Below are positions 1,234 through 8,858 of a stretch of 22,157 bases of DNA, piece by piece. The stretch covers positions 1 to 22,157 of the IMG/VR virus record IMGVR_UViG_3300025815_000127. One strand, given 5' to 3'. Position 1 is the stretch's first letter. Every line of letters starts with the position of its first letter. Source of the DNA: a virus. The translations under genes were made by a program, and so were the position numbers. The notes beneath the pieces are model-generated. The model searched no databases. It had not been told where the DNA came from and saw nothing but the letters and a program-made list of their open reading frames with translations.

Positions 1234-1812
1234 TCAGGCATCTGGGAATCTTGTATCGTCATCAGCGTCAGCCGTTGTCAGAATTCCGCTGGCAACTAAT
1301 ACTTCAGACTTAACTCTGAGTTTTCCGTGACAGTCAATGTAAGTTGTAACACCAACCCAACCAGAGTGTGCCACTGCATATGCAGCTTCTTTACCACCAA
1401 CTGTAGTTCCTGCTGCAACACCAACCTCAATTTCGTCTACACCAAAGACACCAGTAAATACGGGACTTGTGGAGAATCCAACAGTCTTTGATTCAGGTGC
1501 TCTGTAGTGAGAATCGCCAAGAACATAAAGAGGTTCTTGGGAGATTGCATAAGTTGTAGAAGGAACTGTGCTTAATCCACTAACAAATCCAGCGGTTGAA
1601 GCAATAGAAATAGTTGTGGAGGTAAAACCTGTTATAATAGCATATCCGTAAGTTGCACCAGCACCAACTGTAATAACATCACCTGTGCTAATTCCAGAAG
1701 TGGTAAAAGTTACAACTCCAGCAGTACCAGTTACTTGAGCAGTTGAAGTGCCAAGATTTACCTGAACTGTTCCTTCGTTATATACTAAGTCTTTATTGCC
1801 CCAAAGAGCCAT
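1234..1812 (-). CDS. Beta-rich virion structural protein candidate
   Basis: 192 aa, from ATG 1812 with a good Shine-Dalgarno (AAGGA about 5 bases upstream) and an exact T4-type late promoter box 32 bases upstream. The composition is rich in Gly, Thr, Ser, Val and Ala with short strand-like repeats (GDVITVGAGATYGYAIITG, STTISIAST), almost no Lys and few charged residues, typical of an exposed beta-sandwich. The N-terminus MALWGNKDLVYNEGTV and the central YVLGDSH are signatures I associate with a structural protein of cyanomyoviruses. It may be a capsid decoration or neck/tail component; which one cannot be decided from sequence alone. Confidence 0.75.
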   Translation of the reverse strand: MALWGNKDLVYNEGTVQVNLGTSTAQVTGTAGVVTFTTSGISTGDVITVGAGATYGYAIITGFTSTTISIASTAGFVSGLSTVPSTTYAISQEPLYVLGDSHYRAPESKTVGFSTSPVFTGVFGVDEIEVGVAAGTTVGGKEAAYAVAHSGWVGVTTYIDCHGKLRVKSEVLVASGILTTADADDDTRFPDA

Positions 1813-2126: not shown

Positions 2127-2492
2127 TTACTTCTTATTTTTTGCTGCCTCTACGTCCTTTGTGAAGTCTTGGAAAGACTTTCCTCTCTTCTCCATACTCT
2201 TTTTAACAGCACCCATTTTAAGAGAGTCACTAACCTTTCTTCTCAGACTGGTGCGTCCAAGAGGTGGTTTGGTCTTATCAATTGCCCGGGCAATGTCCAA
2301 TCCAACACCCTCTTCTACTTTCTTCTTTTCTGGAAGACCTTTGTGCTTGGTAGATGCAAAATCCTTGGCATCACCCTTTTTCATTGATGCTGCTGCCTGA
2401 GCAACTTCTGGGGAAGGTGCTGGCATATCACCTTTCTTCACGGCATGAACCATACCCATGAAGCGTTGTTGTGCCTTAGATACTGCGGGCAT
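2127..2492 (-). CDS. DUF3008-like small basic protein
   Basis: 121 aa, start ATG 2492 overlapping the upstream stop (TAATG). The N-terminal signature [17 protein letters not shown], followed by KGDMPAPSPEVAQAA and KDFASTKHKGLPEKK, fits the DUF3008 pattern of small proteins found in marine bacteria and their phages. The second half (about residues 65-121) is a Lys/Arg-rich extension beyond the usual short family length. No enzyme motif is visible. The very basic composition could suit DNA binding or packaging with the genome; this is inference. The family name is from memory and needs a profile search. Confidence 0.75.
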   Translation of the reverse strand: MPAVSKAQQRFMGMVHAVKKGDMPAPSPEVAQAAASMKKGDAKDFASTKHKGLPEKKKVEEGVGLDIARAIDKTKPPLGRTSLRRKVSDSLKMGAVKKSMEKRGKSFQDFTKDVEAAKNKK

Positions 2493-4060
2493 TATTTGAT
2501 AGACCTCTTACCGTGTTTTGCTTGGATATCAGCACGGACAATATCCATCGCTGACTTACCCTTTCCATACTTTTTCTCCAGTTCTTTTTGAACTGCAGTT
2601 TTACCTGGTTTGATGCCCAGTTCAGCATTGCTAAGTTTTTTAGCAGGTGGTCTACTGTAGTCAACATTAGCACCAACACCACCTCTTTCCATACGACGAT
2701 CTCTTGCGCGATCTTCTGCAGACTCACCAAGTTCATCATAAGTTTTCATATTTCTTGGTGCAAGTGTAAGTCCAGCAACCTGAATACCTCTTGCTCTCAG
2801 TTTGTTCTTAAAGAGAGTTGCCTTTGTTGGCATTTCTCTTTCATCTTCTGCCTTTGCTGGTTTTGAGTTCTCATCCCAGTACTCTCCACCATAACGGCAC
2901 TCATCTCTGGTTTCATCCTTATCACACTTAGGACAATAACGAACTGCTCCTGCTTCTTCACTATAATTCAGAGGAAGTCTTCCCTGTCTTTGCATCTGCA
3001 TTGTCTGCTTCTGCATCATAATCTTTTTCTTCAGCATCTTATCCTTATTGGCAAGTTGCATCTTTTCTTCTGGGGAAGGACCTGCTGCCTTTGCTGCTGC
3101 TTCCTGCTCCTCAATCTTTTGTGCTTTCAGAGCATCAAGTTCTGCACGGATACTTTCACCAATAGTTGGATTAACTTTGACCTTATTTTTACCCTTCATA
3201 ACATCAAGTTTCTTATCACCCTCTTCCTTTTCATAAATGACTTCTTCTTGGGTGAGTTTTTCCCTAGATACTTCCTTAGTACCACCTTTTACATTCTTAT
3301 CTTTAACAACTTTAATAGTTGATTTTCCAGTCTTAGGATCTTCCCAAGGATTCAGAGTTCCTTGTACTCTTGGAAATGCCTCATCAACATATTCTTCTTT
3401 CGCAATTGCCTTACCAATTGTCTTACGGCGATTCTTCAGATAAGAATCACTCTTATCTACCTTACCATCATTATTAATATCAGAATCTTCCTTACCGACA
3501 GGATCAAGTCCCTTACCTGCCTTTACCTTCGCAGTCTTTTGACCTGTCTTATCATAAGTATCTTCTGCTCTTCTACCAGTAATCTCAACAGAAGAGATAT
3601 TAGGATTGCTTCTCAGTTCTGAGATCTTGGCACGATCTGCCTTTCTGTAATACTCTCTACCAGTCTTCTTATCTTTGACTCTGATGGTGAACTTAGTATC
3701 TGCTGCTTCTTCTACAACTTCTACTTCTTCCTTCTGACCGCCACCTTCTACGAATACTCTTCCAAATATCCCAGAAGTGGTTGACTTTAGATTCTCCGAA
3801 ATATCAAACATATCATATGCCTCACCAATCAGCATCTTCTTGGCAAGAAGTTTGACAGGACCAGGTGCAGGTGACTTACCCAACTGCTGCATATAAGCAC
3901 GCTTCAGTGAGGCAGGGTCGGTCTTTTGTCCTTCCTTAAATCCTTGCTTGACCTTATAACGGACATCATAAGCAAGTTGTCTAGCAGCCTTTCTAACTTT
4001 ATCGGTAGCACCGCCACCACCTTGTTGCTGAGGTGCCTCCTCAAATACGTTATTACTCAT
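2492..4060 (-). CDS. Large Lys/Glu-rich protein with dockerin-like EF-hand loop and Cys motif
   Basis: 522 aa from ATG 4060, downstream of an exact late promoter box. The chain is highly charged and low in hydrophobics. Residues 194-205 ([12 protein letters not shown]) match a calcium-binding loop of dockerin/EF-hand type, with Asp or Asn at positions 1, 3, 5, 9 and 12 and Gly at 6. Residues 376-388 ([13 protein letters not shown]) hold a CxxC plus a third Cys, a possible half zinc site. Residues around 77-82 (LIGEAY) match the I-x-E/A form of T4 prohead protease sites, so processing in the capsid is possible. A late virion-associated or internal head protein is likely; the function is unknown. 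Confidence 0.75.
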
Positions 4061-4078: not shown

Positions 4079-5335
4079 TTACTTTTTTCTATACTTATTT
4101 ATAAATTGTCTTCCCCATTCACTTCCGGGAACCATTTTCTCAACATACTTTCTGAATCCATCAGTTCCGACAAGAGTATTTGGTTTTCCTGGTTCTCTTT
4201 CTTCACTATCCATTTTGACTTCGGTATACTTCTGTGCTTCCATTACATCCTTAATCCAAGACTTGAACATAATATTGTCTTCCGTTACACAAATCAAATA
4301 GTTGGTTCCCCGACGGATAATCTTACCGACCAATCCAGTGTTGAGATTTTCTACTAGCTCACCAACCTTAAAAACTTTTTCCTTGACAAAGTTTTCGCGC
4401 AACCCTTTCCAATCAAACTTCGGTGCAATCTCCCAGAGACTCCAACCTTCTTTGATTTGCATTGCGGCACGAAGAGTATTATAAAGTTCTCTTGCCTGCT
4501 TATTATTCATTGATGAAGGAACACCCTTACGGAATGCTGCAAAGTCTCCTTCTGCTGCTGCCTTTCTTTGCTTTGATGCAGACATACCAGAGACATCATC
4601 ACCATCTGGGTCTCTGTCACCTGCGGAACGAACTTCTACATTATCAAAAGCATAAAGTTTTCCATTGTAATCATTGGAGAGTTTCTCAAACTCTTGGACT
4701 CTATCTCCACCGCCAATGATTCTTACACCAGCATATCCATCCATATGTGCCTTCTTCAACACATCAAAGATAGTGCGGTTAGCAGGATCATTTACAATTC
4801 TCTCACTGTGCTTTGGATACATCTGTCTCATAATAGAGACTTTTGTATCAGCATCCAGTGGATTCTTTTTCTTGTCCTGCGTGCGTGATGGAATAATAAT
4901 GTAGTCACCATCATCAGACGATGAAGCAACAGTGTCCAGGAGTTTTTCGTGTCCAGTGGTTGGTGGATTAAAACGTCCGAAAGCAATTGTTAAAGTTCCT
5001 TTGGTTTTCTCAACTGGTGGTGGACCTTCCTGTGTCGATGCCTGTTGAGCAGCAGGTTGCTCTGGTGCTGGTGCCTGCTGCTGTGCTGCAGGTTCTTGTG
5101 CTGGTTCTTTTTCGTATGAGGTTTGAGAAAGATTCTTTTCCTTATCAGTTTGTGCTGGATCCTGCTGTCCAATTCTCTGACGCTTATTATAAAACTTCAG
5201 TCTTCCTTTTTCTGTCTTTGCAACAAACTCACCTTTATTATCATACCATCCACCATGTCCGTCACTTTTCAGACCAAGACGTGCTGCCTGCTGAACTGCG
5301 GTTGATTCGGATAAAAATTGGAAGAAGCTCTTCAT
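4079..5335 (-). CDS. Nucleotidyltransferase-domain protein with capsid-targeting-like N-terminus
   Basis: 418 aa; ATG 5335 overlaps the upstream stop (TAATG). Residues 1-10 are MKSFFQFLSE, close to the T4 internal-protein targeting peptide MKTYQEFIAE, with a predicted cut after Glu10. Residues 20-53 form a small domain (GLKSDGHGGWYD, KFYNKRQ) known from marine phages. Residues 60-112 are a Gln/Pro/Ala linker. Residues 115-270 are a nucleotidyltransferase alpha/beta fold: AFGRFNPPTTGHEKL at 118-132 is the HxGH motif with the first His replaced by Thr126, and MSASKQR at 251-257 is the ISSTxxR equivalent. Residues 322-366 look like a small beta-barrel (VFKVGELV, RRGTNYLI). The substrate is unknown: NMN, cytidylyl or protein AMP transfer are all possible. 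Confidence 0.8.
   Translation of the reverse strand: MKSFFQFLSESTAVQQAARLGLKSDGHGGWYDNKGEFVAKTEKGRLKFYNKRQRIGQQDPAQTDKEKNLSQTSYEKEPAQEPAAQQQAPAPEQPAAQQASTQEGPPPVEKTKGTLTIAFGRFNPPTTGHEKLLDTVASSSDDGDYIIIPSRTQDKKKNPLDADTKVSIMRQMYPKHSERIVNDPANRTIFDVLKKAHMDGYAGVRIIGGGDRVQEFEKLSNDYNGKLYAFDNVEVRSAGDRDPDGDDVSGMSASKQRKAAAEGDFAAFRKGVPSSMNNKQARELYNTLRAAMQIKEGWSLWEIAPKFDWKGLRENFVKEKVFKVGELVENLNTGLVGKIIRRGTNYLICVTEDNIMFKSWIKDVMEAQKYTEVKMDSEEREPGKPNTLVGTDGFRKYVEKMVPGSEWGRQFINKYRKK
4096..4103 (-). promoter_or_regulatory. T4-type late promoter box TATAAATA
   Basis: Exact TATAAATA on the minus strand inside the last codons of the nucleotidyltransferase gene, 36 bases before the ATG of the 522-aa gene. The spacing is nearly the same as for the other exact late box in the window, which supports it as a real late start. 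Confidence 0.65.
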
Positions 5336-5559
5336 TACTTACTCAGTTTTTTAATTATAGATTTTTCGTTGGCAACAATGTAACTGAGGACACTATTCCT
5401 CATTTTCTTATATTTATTCATCATCTTATCTGACTTGCATAATGAGATGTGCTTGTCAAAGGTTGTGTAGACGTGAGCAAGGAAGTCATTATACTTCCTT
5501 TTCGGTGCCTTTGAGTCCGTCTCAAAAGACTGTAATAATTCTGTAACTTGTGGGTTCAT
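5335..5559 (-). CDS. Small basic helical protein, 74 aa
   Basis: ATG 5559 overlaps the preceding stop by ATGA, and its stop overlaps the next ATG as TAATG, so it is coupled on both sides. The sequence is helical and basic with motifs KAPKRKYNDFLAHVY and SDKMMNKYKKMRNSVL and ends KKLSK. There is no membrane segment or recognised domain. It sits between two large late-type genes and is probably expressed with them. Function unknown. Confidence 0.7.
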   Translation of the reverse strand: MNPQVTELLQSFETDSKAPKRKYNDFLAHVYTTFDKHISLCKSDKMMNKYKKMRNSVLSYIVANEKSIIKKLSK

Positions 5560-6977
5560 GCCAATTTTCCGTGAGGTGCAAACCTCTTTCCAACTTTCAG
5601 GGAAAGATATAATAAGTCAGTCCAAAATTCTTCTGGTTTATTACTATTCCTAGACATAACATCAGAGAAAAAATGAAGTTGCATTAGTTTAGATTGTGCA
5701 ACTGCTTTTGATTTTGGATTATCAGATCTATACATTTTAAGTATTCTACTTCTAAACTCTGCATAATCTTTTGTCCCTTTTATATTTGCTCTTAAACTAT
5801 TATACATCCTTTCATAGTCTCTTCTATCGTTCTTAAAATCTTCTGCTGTTTCTGGGTAGTCTTGGTGCCTATTCACATAAGTATGTCCCGGAACCTTACT
5901 CTTCAACATAGTTGCTACTAAATCTACAGGTGCTGCTCCACCCCTTCCACCACTACCTTTTATAACACTTTCATATTTTAGATTTGAGAATCCTGATCCA
6001 GGAGTTCTTATAACATTTATAGTATATTTTCCAAATAAAACATATCCACCCTGAGACATGCCATCAACGGTTTCTTCTGTTTTAATTTCAATAGTTATAT
6101 CACTCATCTTTACTTCTTCAACCTGAGCAAATTCAATTTTCTTTGGATCTTTATTTACATAAACAAAATTTGCTTTCTCTTTTGGTTCTATTTTTTTAAG
6201 AGACAATCCTATCAACTTATTATCTTTCATCAAATTCAAAAGAACATTATTCAACTCTTTCAGAGTTGCAGTTCCGTCTTTCTGAATAGCATCATCAATT
6301 TTTTTCTTTACCTGAGATTTATCTTTCACTGCCCATATATCAGCAGGATTCCATGTTTCATATTTACCAACATCCTTCAATCTACCAGAGGCAGTTACTT
6401 CTTTCACAATTTGACATTGTTCCTTCACAAATTCCATTAAGTCTTGTCCACCATGCTCAAATATATCCCATTGTGCAGGTTGAAATTTTTTAAAGAAAGC
6501 TTTCTGGTGTTCAAAATAACTATGAGTCCATTCATTAATACTTTCGGTATATGGTGCTTTGAATATTTTTTCAAGTCCTTTTTTTGTTTCCGTATCACCT
6601 AAAATATCAGCGGCACTAGTAAATTTTTTATTCTTCTTTAATACTTGAGTAAGAATAAAAGCACTTCCAGCTTCTTGAATTGCAGTCGGTACTGGTCCAG
6701 CAACTCCACCCTGAGATACTTTTATTTTTAAGGTGCTTTCAAATCCGTCGTACTTTACATCACCAATTTCATAAGAACCATAAAAATTTTCATTTAAAAT
6801 TTTTAGAGTCTCATCTTTAAGTTTCTTTTGTTGTGCAGCAGTCAATTTCTTTTCAAAGGATAATTCAACACCACTCACAGTCAACATAGTATCAAAAAGA
6901 GGAATTGTTCCTATTTTTTTAACCTTATCTCCAAAATATTTTTCTACGTTTTTATTATCAGCTTGCTGCTTAGCCAT
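5556..6977 (-). CDS. Large conserved hypothetical protein, 473 aa
   Basis: ATG 6977 has an excellent Shine-Dalgarno (AGGAG, 7 bases upstream); an in-frame TTG at 6980 is not needed. Visible conserved-looking blocks are GPVPTAIQEAGSAF (about 95-108), EWTHSYFEHQKAFFKKF, TWNPADIW (about 208-215) and a C-terminal HFFSDVMSRN followed by LLYLSLKVGKRFAPHG. The first quarter is beta/alpha mixed (LTVSGVELSF), with no membrane segment and no nucleotide-binding loop. I recall WNPADIW-type proteins as recurrent unknowns in marine phages. It lies between the long MKSF protein and the nucleotidyltransferase, so a virion or ejected role is possible but unproved. Confidence 0.75.
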   Translation of the reverse strand: MAKQQADNKNVEKYFGDKVKKIGTIPLFDTMLTVSGVELSFEKKLTAAQQKKLKDETLKILNENFYGSYEIGDVKYDGFESTLKIKVSQGGVAGPVPTAIQEAGSAFILTQVLKKNKKFTSAADILGDTETKKGLEKIFKAPYTESINEWTHSYFEHQKAFFKKFQPAQWDIFEHGGQDLMEFVKEQCQIVKEVTASGRLKDVGKYETWNPADIWAVKDKSQVKKKIDDAIQKDGTATLKELNNVLLNLMKDNKLIGLSLKKIEPKEKANFVYVNKDPKKIEFAQVEEVKMSDITIEIKTEETVDGMSQGGYVLFGKYTINVIRTPGSGFSNLKYESVIKGSGGRGGAAPVDLVATMLKSKVPGHTYVNRHQDYPETAEDFKNDRRDYERMYNSLRANIKGTKDYAEFRSRILKMYRSDNPKSKAVAQSKLMQLHFFSDVMSRNSNKPEEFWTDLLYLSLKVGKRFAPHGKLA

Positions 6978-6980
6978 CAA

Positions 6981-8858
6981 TCACTCCTGTGGTAATTGTC
7001 CGTTAGAAGTTTGTACTGGTTTCTTTTCTTTCTTCTTCTCTGGTTTTGGTGTTACTGGTGAAGGAACTTCTGGTTTTGCTGGTTCTTCTGGTTTCTGTTG
7101 TGGTTTTGTATCTACTGGTTCTGTTCTTTGTGGTTGCTGTTGTGGTTTTGGTGCCTCTGGTTGCGGTTTAGTTTTTTCTCTTGCCTGTGCTGCTTTTGCC
7201 TGAATATCGGCAATTGATGTTTGTGCCTGTTGAACTGCCTGTGCTGCTACTTCCTGTCTGGCTGCGTGTTGTTGTGCAGCATCTGGATTATTCTGCAAGT
7301 AATATTGATTCTTTCTTGGAACTGGTTTTCCATTAGGGAATCTAATTACACTTGCATCTGCCTGCTCTCTTTCGGCATCATCAAGTGCTTTTTGTGCTTG
7401 TTTTTGTGCGGCAGCAGCATTCCTCAATTCCTGCCTTCTATTTTGAATATCAGGATCTGCTTCTGCTGCAGCAAGTTTTGTTCTTCGTTCAGATTGTGCT
7501 CCTGTAATTGGTCCTTGTTGTGGTTTTGCCTGATTATCTTTTTTGTCTGAATCTGGTTTTGCTGGACCAACCCTTCCAGCTAAAGCACCAGATCTTTGTA
7601 TTCTTTCTGGTTCTTCTCCTCTCCTCCTTTTTTCAAATTCAATAAATCCAGTTTCCTTTTTACTACTTTTACCTTTTCCAGATCTAGCGGAAAGAGGTTG
7701 ATCTAGTTCTCCTCTTTGCGATACTGGTTCTGCCTTTGCTCTACTAACAACTTCTCCTGTTTTTGGATCTACATATGTCCCCCTAACAACTTCTCTTGCT
7801 TCTCCAGATGGAGAGGATTTGAGATAGTCAGAAAGTTGTTGATAAGTTTTATATTTTGATTGAATTTTACTTACTCGTGCTCGTTCATCCTTTGATAAAT
7901 CAGATTTATTAATTTTTCCAGTTTTAATTCTTAATGCAGTCAAGGCATCTTTGAAGTCTTGACTTTCCGAATCCATCTGAGCAGAAACTTTTTTTCCAAA
8001 TTTTTGTTCGCCACTAGCAGCTTCTTTATCAACTAATCTATCAAATCCTGGATAAGATTTAACAAGTTTATCAACTGCAGATTGGGCAATTGATAATCTT
8101 TTATCGCTCTTTTCTTTATTTTCTGTTGGACTGATTTTTAAACTTTGTGCTCTAATATACTTTGATATGTTAGATTCCACATCTACTTTAAATTTTTCAA
8201 TATCTTCTTTAGATGCACCATCCTTTTTTAATTGTTGAATATATTTTTTAGCAGCAGCTTGGAACAATCCTCTAACTTCTTCAGGTTCGGCAGATAAAGT
8301 TTGCGACCCTTCCCCTTGCTTTAAACTTATCCCCTGTCCAAATTTTTTATCTTTTGTGTCCGCAATAGAAATATCTCTTTTTGAAGTATCTGCTTCTTTT
8401 CCAACAACATCTTTCCACATTTTTGTAGTTGGTGGAGTTGCCCCACCTTCAACTTTAGAATAAGCAGTTGGGCGATTAGCAGCAGACTTTCCTCTTCTAC
8501 CTTTAGTATATGCTACTACACTATCTGGTGCTAATTTCAATTCATCATAATATGTTGATTGACTTTGACTTGCATTATTATCCTTTCCCTTTTCAAATCC
8601 CCTTTTTGCTTTCTCAAAACTTAATGGATGTTTCGGATCTTCTTCAGCAGCAGCAATTTCTTTCTCCATTGCTTCTCTAGCTTCATCATATTTTCCACTA
8701 TTAATTAAGTCTCTTACTTCCTTACCATATTTTCTATGGGTAATGAAGTGATTCCACACTTTTCTAAATGCGTGTTCATCACTATACTTTCCTTCAAAGA
8801 GAAACAATGAAAACTTATTAAAATAACACTCAAATATAAAATCTCCGAAAGACTTCAT
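6981..8858 (-). CDS. Long disordered protein with capsid-targeting-like N-terminus
   Basis: 625 aa from ATG 8858. The N-terminus MKSFGDFIFE resembles the T4 internal-protein targeting peptide and has two consensus-like prohead protease positions, IFE/C after Glu10 and LFE/G after Glu22. Residues 23-100 are charged and helical. The middle (100-400) is Lys/Ser/Glu-rich with repeated short helices, and the last third (about 430-625) is low-complexity Gln/Ala/Pro/Lys (PKPQQQPQ, KPEKKKEKKP). It has no recognised enzyme motif. It is the first gene after the tRNA, in the stretch that carries late-type genes. A scaffold, internal head or ejected protein would fit; this is inference from the N-terminus and composition. 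Confidence 0.75.
   Translation of the reverse strand: MKSFGDFIFECYFNKFSLFLFEGKYSDEHAFRKVWNHFITHRKYGKEVRDLINSGKYDEAREAMEKEIAAAEEDPKHPLSFEKAKRGFEKGKDNNASQSQSTYYDELKLAPDSVVAYTKGRRGKSAANRPTAYSKVEGGATPPTTKMWKDVVGKEADTSKRDISIADTKDKKFGQGISLKQGEGSQTLSAEPEEVRGLFQAAAKKYIQQLKKDGASKEDIEKFKVDVESNISKYIRAQSLKISPTENKEKSDKRLSIAQSAVDKLVKSYPGFDRLVDKEAASGEQKFGKKVSAQMDSESQDFKDALTALRIKTGKINKSDLSKDERARVSKIQSKYKTYQQLSDYLKSSPSGEAREVVRGTYVDPKTGEVVSRAKAEPVSQRGELDQPLSARSGKGKSSKKETGFIEFEKRRRGEEPERIQRSGALAGRVGPAKPDSDKKDNQAKPQQGPITGAQSERRTKLAAAEADPDIQNRRQELRNAAAAQKQAQKALDDAEREQADASVIRFPNGKPVPRKNQYYLQNNPDAAQQHAARQEVAAQAVQQAQTSIADIQAKAAQAREKTKPQPEAPKPQQQPQRTEPVDTKPQQKPEEPAKPEVPSPVTPKPEKKKEKKPVQTSNGQLPQE

Follow-up and report, generated by a model that had tools for sequence, protein, structure and literature searches.

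A nucleotidyltransferase of T4-like cyanophages with a T4 internal-protein-type leader is a probable virion enzyme

A gene from an uncultured T4-like cyanophage raises the question of whether its product, a predicted nucleotidyltransferase (NTase), is carried in the virion, and which reaction it might catalyse after delivery to the host. The gene lies on a stretch of 22,157 nucleotides, referred to hereafter as the window (IMG/VR record IMGVR_UViG_3300025815_000127, positions 1 to 22,157). Among named phages, Synechococcus phage S-SKS1 is the closest and covers 44% of the window at 81% identity. Enzymes have been reported in marine cyanophage virions since 2010, and recent papers caution that some may be carried over into phage preparations. 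The initial annotation had proposed, from the sequence alone, that the protein begins with a peptide like the one that targets T4 internal proteins to the capsid, that a nucleotidyltransferase fold follows and that the enzyme is packaged.

The open reading frame is real, and hundreds of phage records show conservation along its entire length. Relatives were found in 535 records, in 364 of which the alignment covers at least 80% of the length. The protein matched phrog_395 ('cytidyltransferase') at 4.9e-107 and belongs to the family labelled T4-GC190 in the S-ShM2 and S-SM1 records. Pfam PF01467 (CTP_transf_like) was matched above its cutoff (E = 8.9e-8; 32.8 bits versus 21), as it was by 23 of 23 aligned family members. 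The NTase gene and the small ORF preceding it are likely to be translationally coupled (Table 1). In S-SKS1, the orthologue (L003:20001-21229) is divided between two frames that break in the linker (matches 72905-73234 and 72006-72995), and because of this split it is not annotated as a single gene; a frameshift or a sequencing error lies behind the division. PHROG 4808 and some records mislabel the small C-terminal domain 'ribonucleotide reductase alpha subunit'; the domain belongs to NTase proteins.

Table 1. The NTase gene, its parts and its neighbours in the window.
Feature	Position	Strand	Evidence or remark
Gene of the probable virion NTase, 'cytidyltransferase'	4079..5335	-	418 aa; ATG at 5335; PHROG 395 / T4-GC190
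Leader MKSFFQFLSE, residues 1-10, probable capsid-targeting sequence with predicted gp21 cut after E10	5306..5335	-	Conservation; T4 IPII/IPIII; T4 CTS genetics (PMC9026906)
Common N-terminal module, residues 12-55, contains GLKSDGHGGWYDNKGEFVAKTEKGRLKFYN	5171..5302	-	Cyanophage virion kinases and S-CREM2 ORF12 have it too
P/Q/A-rich linker, residues 56-111	5003..5170	-	Variable, low pLDDT; alignment, model
Nucleotidyltransferase domain, residues 112-297	4445..5002	-	Model pLDDT 87.9, pTM 0.83; PPAT/NMNAT matches
Catalytic motif 1, GRFNPPTTGH (T/HxGH), residues 120-129	4949..4978	-	Sequence
Catalytic motif 2, MSASKQR (ISxTxxR-type), residues 251-257	4565..4585	-	Sequence
Small C-terminal beta domain, residues about 310-368	4232..4408	-	Common to other phage proteins; phrog_4808
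Small ORF, 74 aa, 5' of the NTase gene	5335..5559	-	Stop overlaps NTase start (TAATG)
Island neighbour, phrog_1462	5556..6980	-	Weak relative of MS-detected S-SCSM1 ORF90
625-aa low-complexity ORF, starts MKSFGDFIFE-C	6981..8858	-	Leader present; five leader-bearing relatives among IMG/VR loci
TATAAATA, T4-late-promoter-like	4096..4103	-	36 nt upstream of the 2492-4060 start
Island neighbour	2492..4060	-	Partial relative of MS-detected S-SCSM1 ORF92
Island neighbour, DUF3008	2127..2492	-	97% identity over 58 aa to MS-detected S-SCSM1 ORF93
Island neighbour	1234..1812	-	Relative of MS-detected S-SCSM1 ORF95

The proposed likeness between the first ten residues and a T4 peptide was confirmed. 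In the T4 record, IPII and IPIII both begin MKTYQEFIAE-A. A start of the form M-K-x-F-x-x-F-[LI]-x-E is common to the four relatives detected in virions by mass spectrometry (MS) and to practically all full-length orthologues seen. Orthologue starts were first set by BLAST alignment rather than by the pattern. Among 86 distinct 60-nt starts from a second extraction, which used a loose pattern to locate them, K2, F or L at position 4, F7 and E10 were each found in 85, and L, I or F at position 8 in all 86; positions 3, 5, 6 and 9 were variable. The sole exception was S-SZBM1, in which the motif is displaced by one residue (MRFRQFIIE-A). The leader codons vary freely, with about 1 bit at K2, F7 and E10, and it is therefore the protein sequence that is conserved. 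In T4 IPIII the first ten residues suffice for packaging, residues 4 and 7 serve targeting and residues 8 and 10 serve processing by gp21, a protease that cleaves after L/I-x-E (reviewed in PMC9026906). The positions constrained in the cyanophage leader (4, 7, 8 and 10) are thus those with targeting or processing roles in T4 genetics. At its end the leader is also similar to the major capsid protein maturation site, which reads SFLAE-A in S-SCSM1 gp23 and SFLTE-A in T4 gp23, with LLTE-A and ILTE-A at the equivalent sites of S-CREM2 and S-SZBM1. A gp21 homologue is encoded in relatives; the head genes fall outside the window fragment.

To gauge chance likeness, the leader pattern was counted at annotated gene starts of S-CREM2. 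It was present at 6 of 219, as compared with 0.27 expected from internal windows and 0.30 from shuffled sequences, and none of 2000 shuffles reached six; the leader is therefore more than a chance resemblance. A relative in Pelagibacter phage HTVC008M has no leader with Glu, which counts against the leader reading. In cyanophages, the leader is very probably a targeting signal, and its cleavage after E10 is likely. Leader-like starts were also seen in the same island of Methylophilales phage Melnitz-3, which has a non-cyanobacterial host (MQGFKTFLSEA, MINFSKYITED and MKKFSEIIEA, in genes 15, 16 and 18). S-CBWM1, a non-T4 cyanophage with a reported virion NMNAT, was considered as further support and set aside: its gp39 is a different protein, without the leader.

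Relatives of the NTase are present in four published virion proteomes. T4-GC190 peptides were detected by MS in purified S-SM1 virions (PMC3037559), and S-SCSM1 ORF91 (PMC9602691), S-SZBM1 protein 140 (PMC9146016) and S-CREM2 ORF154 (PMC10665884) were likewise detected by MS in virions; in S-SCSM1 the neighbours 89, 90, 92, 93, 95 and 97 were detected as well. The four proteins begin MKKFSAFLNE-A, MKSFLQFLKE-A, MRFRQFIIE-A and MKNFSSFLTE-A, respectively. These data are protein-level detections in relatives, in which N-termini were not mapped. The S-PM2 homologue is encoded and was undetected in virion MS, which counts against packaging.

If the leader directs packaging, other proteins that carry it should also be found in virions. 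In S-CREM2, five of the six leader proteins were detected by MS (Fisher P = 0.003), namely the SAM lyase ORF6, ORF13, the kinase ORF14, ORF136 and the NTase ORF154, and most replication proteins were undetected. The pattern had been widened from a tighter first version after proteins of S-H34 and S-CRM01, from the phage cluster of S-CREM2, were viewed and before S-CREM2 was scored, so that this test is not fully independent. Leader genes were detected in one of two cases in S-SCSM1 and one of four in S-SZBM1, neither significant alone. Pooling the three proteomes gave 7 of 12 leader proteins detected as compared with 2.3 expected (exact test, P = 0.0027), an association driven by S-CREM2. Many virion proteins of the island are without a leader.

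The authors of the S-SCSM1 and S-CREM2 studies speculated on delivery to the host and warned of residual non-virion protein (PMC9602691, PMC10665884). If the latter applied here, the NTase would be a cytosolic enzyme, abundant late in infection and contaminating the phage preparations, and its likeness to the T4 leader would be incidental. This is very unlikely given that the protein was detected independently in four phages, that its leader agrees with that of T4 at the functional positions and that in S-CREM2 leader starts are in excess and mostly belong to detected proteins, unlike most replication proteins. The proposal that the NTase is packaged in the capsid is thus supported both by the proteomes of relatives and by agreement with T4 at the positions that matter.

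The module that follows the leader links the NTase to other virion proteins. The module has the pattern GLxxDGHGGWYDxxGEFVAKTExGxLKFYN at residues about 12-55. With a family profile it was recovered twice in S-CREM2 ORF14 and also in S-CREM2 ORF12, the kinases of S-H34 and S-CRM01 and a 977-aa protein of S-H34 (E = 8e-8 to 1e-5). ORF12 and ORF14 were both detected by MS, and in ORF12 the leader core lies slightly further in (RFASFMAEA). A putative kinase has been reported in the S-CRM01 virion, according to a citation in PMC10665884, and the annotated S-CRM01 kinase begins MISFDQFLSE. Apart from the NTase, the leader or a variant form occurs in the MS-detected S-CREM2 proteins ORF6, 12, 13, 14, 15 and 136; among them are a SAM lyase (PF23780), a 'Cas9' without Pfam support, a kinase and uncharacterised proteins. 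The leader and variant proteins of S-CREM2 are a candidate injected set. A conserved leader protein of ∼105 aa (MKTFKQFMSESVNISGDFNGNLY / MKSFKSFLSESVNISGDFNGNLY) is encoded near virion genes, as S-SCSM1 ORF30 (L084:44215-44535) and S-SZBM1 ORF191; it was undetected by MS in both phages.

In the window, the 625-aa ORF of the same island gave no Pfam or PHROG match and is, on the basis of its leader, a candidate for a second internal protein. The sequence TATAAATA was considered as a late promoter in support of a virion role and given no weight, as it occurs twice before virion-gene neighbours, compared with 1.1 times expected by chance.

A packaged NTase could still be mainly structural, part of the prohead core or an internal scaffold, in which case the enzyme domain would be vestigial or moonlighting. 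Its gene lies within an island of uncharacterised virion proteins, the protein contains long low-complexity stretches, and in S-SZBM1 its copy number is low (emPAI 0.26, similar to the 0.30 of the prohead protease). However, such a copy number is low for a core protein, and the catalytic motifs are all invariant over the range of 41-94% identity, which a relic would not need. A mainly structural role therefore seems unlikely.

We turned to structure prediction to characterize the enzyme domain. Modelling of the whole protein gave a poor result (pLDDT 59), and a model of the domain alone, built with more diverse relatives, was used in its place (Table 1). Among the 50 matches listed, PPAT/CoaD was best (Z 14.1, rmsd 2.8, 152 aligned), with NMNAT at Z 12.9 (rmsd 3.0, 154 aligned) and NadD at Z 12.7; the PDB matches listed span Z 12.5-14.1, and Foldseek agrees. 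A direct sequence search of the PDB with the NTase gave no match. Together with the Pfam result, the domain model and its structural matches confirm the Rossmann-like nucleotidyltransferase fold, and the two catalytic motifs are present as first described. The core residues GRxNPP(T/H)xGH, SRxxDxKKNPL, GxDR, SAGxRDxD and SASxxR do not vary even in relatives at 41% identity, and the domain is therefore probably active, as judged from sequence. The initial annotation had further suggested that Thr in place of the first His of HxGH might alter activity or substrate. This is weakened by PPAT/CoaD, where Thr is the usual residue and where the E. coli CoaD motif GTFDPITNGH has the aligned Thr, and by relatives in S-SZBM1, S-CREM2 and S-CRM01 that have His; packaged relatives carry either residue. 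Thr at this position was accordingly dropped as a mark of changed activity.

The family names in use do not suit the protein. It falls far below every curated NCBIfam cutoff, with 18.1 bits versus 103.3 for PPAT/CoaD (TIGR01510) and, for the NMNAT families NadR, NadD and NadM, 22.3 versus 341 (TIGR01526), 20.7 versus 112 (TIGR00482) and 12.4 versus 181 (TIGR01527); the names NMNAT, CoaD and cytidyltransferase are therefore all unsuited. Most annotations would make it a true cytidylyltransferase, acting on glycerol-3-phosphate or similar, in line with the name of the Pfam superfamily and the label of PHROG 395. In both structural comparisons, however, all 50 matches listed are adenylyltransferases (PPAT, NMNAT, NadD) and none is a cytidylyltransferase, an absence that does not amount to exclusion. 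We consider cytidylyl transfer quite unlikely, and transfer of an adenylyl group probable.

A more specific proposal, put forward in the S-SCSM1 paper (PMC9602691), concerns NAD; S-SCSM1 ORF91 carries the GenBank note 'NMNAT (virion protein)'. On such a reading the NTase would act as an NMN adenylyltransferase brought in to maintain or restore the NAD of the host, for instance where defences deplete it, a role compatible with the packaged adenylyltransferase that we favour. The top NCBIfam match by E-value is NadR (6.6e-5), the GRF element resembles the GKF of NadR, and NMNAT is among the structural matches. Against this, the NadR score is a small fraction of its curated cutoff, the Z scores of PPAT structures are higher by up to 1.2, and none of seven relatives carrying the NTase has a NAPRTase/NadV gene, whereas phage NadM occurs together with NadV (PMC9503650). 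NadV as a partner for NAD salvage was thus rejected. A second apparent link to NAD, the 'NAD synthetase' neighbour in S-SKS1 (SWZG_00081, L003:31714-32175), proved to be a SegE-type GIY-YIG endonuclease (PF19835, 4e-55). NAD synthesis by the NTase is possible and at present unsupported; we regard the NMNAT reading as doubtful, if less so than cytidylyl transfer.

The best explanation, and a probable one, is that the NTase is a virion enzyme handled like a T4 internal protein and acting as an adenylyltransferase. It would be synthesized late, and its first ten residues would dock it onto the prohead core. A gp21-type protease would then cut behind Glu10 and release the leader, so that the processed protein would begin at Ser11. 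In this mature form it would be retained with the packaged DNA and ejected with the genome at infection; ejection into the host is somewhat less certain than cleavage, and still rather likely. In the host, the HIGH-superfamily domain may transfer AMP from ATP onto a small phosphate-bearing acceptor. We suggest, tentatively, that one leader loads a set of head enzymes, comprising the NTase, kinases, the SAM lyase and several others, of which the NTase is the most widespread and might, during the first minutes of infection, change the pool of a nucleotide cofactor, possibly to counter host defence.

Packaging of the family was known; what the present analysis adds is that cyanophage virion enzymes carry a leader of the T4 type. 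No description of such a leader, or of its match to T4 internal proteins, was found in the papers searched on the virion-detected relatives. The leader provides a mechanism and a sequence rule for cyanophage virion enzymes. It allows the proteins that these viruses, which are very abundant in the ocean, inject into Synechococcus and Prochlorococcus to be predicted without data beyond their genomes. If one leader does load the set, the injected set of T4-like cyanophages could be deduced from their genome sequences. The results also remove a wrong lead, as Thr in HxGH is no sign of an odd or dead enzyme. The predicted neo-N-terminus at residue 11 would correspond to a single peptide, which can be sought in existing raw proteomics data.

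The closest counterparts are the T4-GC190/PHROG 395 virion proteins (S-SM1 190, S-SCSM1 ORF91, S-SZBM1_140 and S-CREM2 ORF154), which are homologous, combine the same leader and enzyme domain and in most cases lie in the same kind of genomic island; the window phage is a different, uncultured virus. With T4 IPII and IPIII the NTase shares a ten-residue leader with K2, aromatic residues at 4 and 7, an aliphatic residue at 8 and Glu10. Whereas the cargo of T4 IPI, IPII and IPIII is a small inhibitor or an uncharacterised protein, that of the NTase is an enzyme of 408 aa, with an extra module after the leader. The initial comparison with T4 Alt stands as an analogy, both being enzymes that are packaged in the virion, or probably so, and could act at entry; as had been claimed, the chemistry differs, and the NTase domain is of the HIGH type by Pfam and predicted fold and not an Alt-type ADP-ribosyltransferase. 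PPAT/CoaD is the closest fold among the matches listed and shares the TxGH form of motif 1, but identity is 14-17%, the NTase has GRF in place of GTF, and its domain is fused to the leader, the module and a C-terminal domain. NMNATs of the NadM, NadR and archaeal types share the fold and, within motif 1, the G-[RK]-F-x-P element; the NTase falls far below their family cutoffs, and most members of its own family have Thr for the first His.
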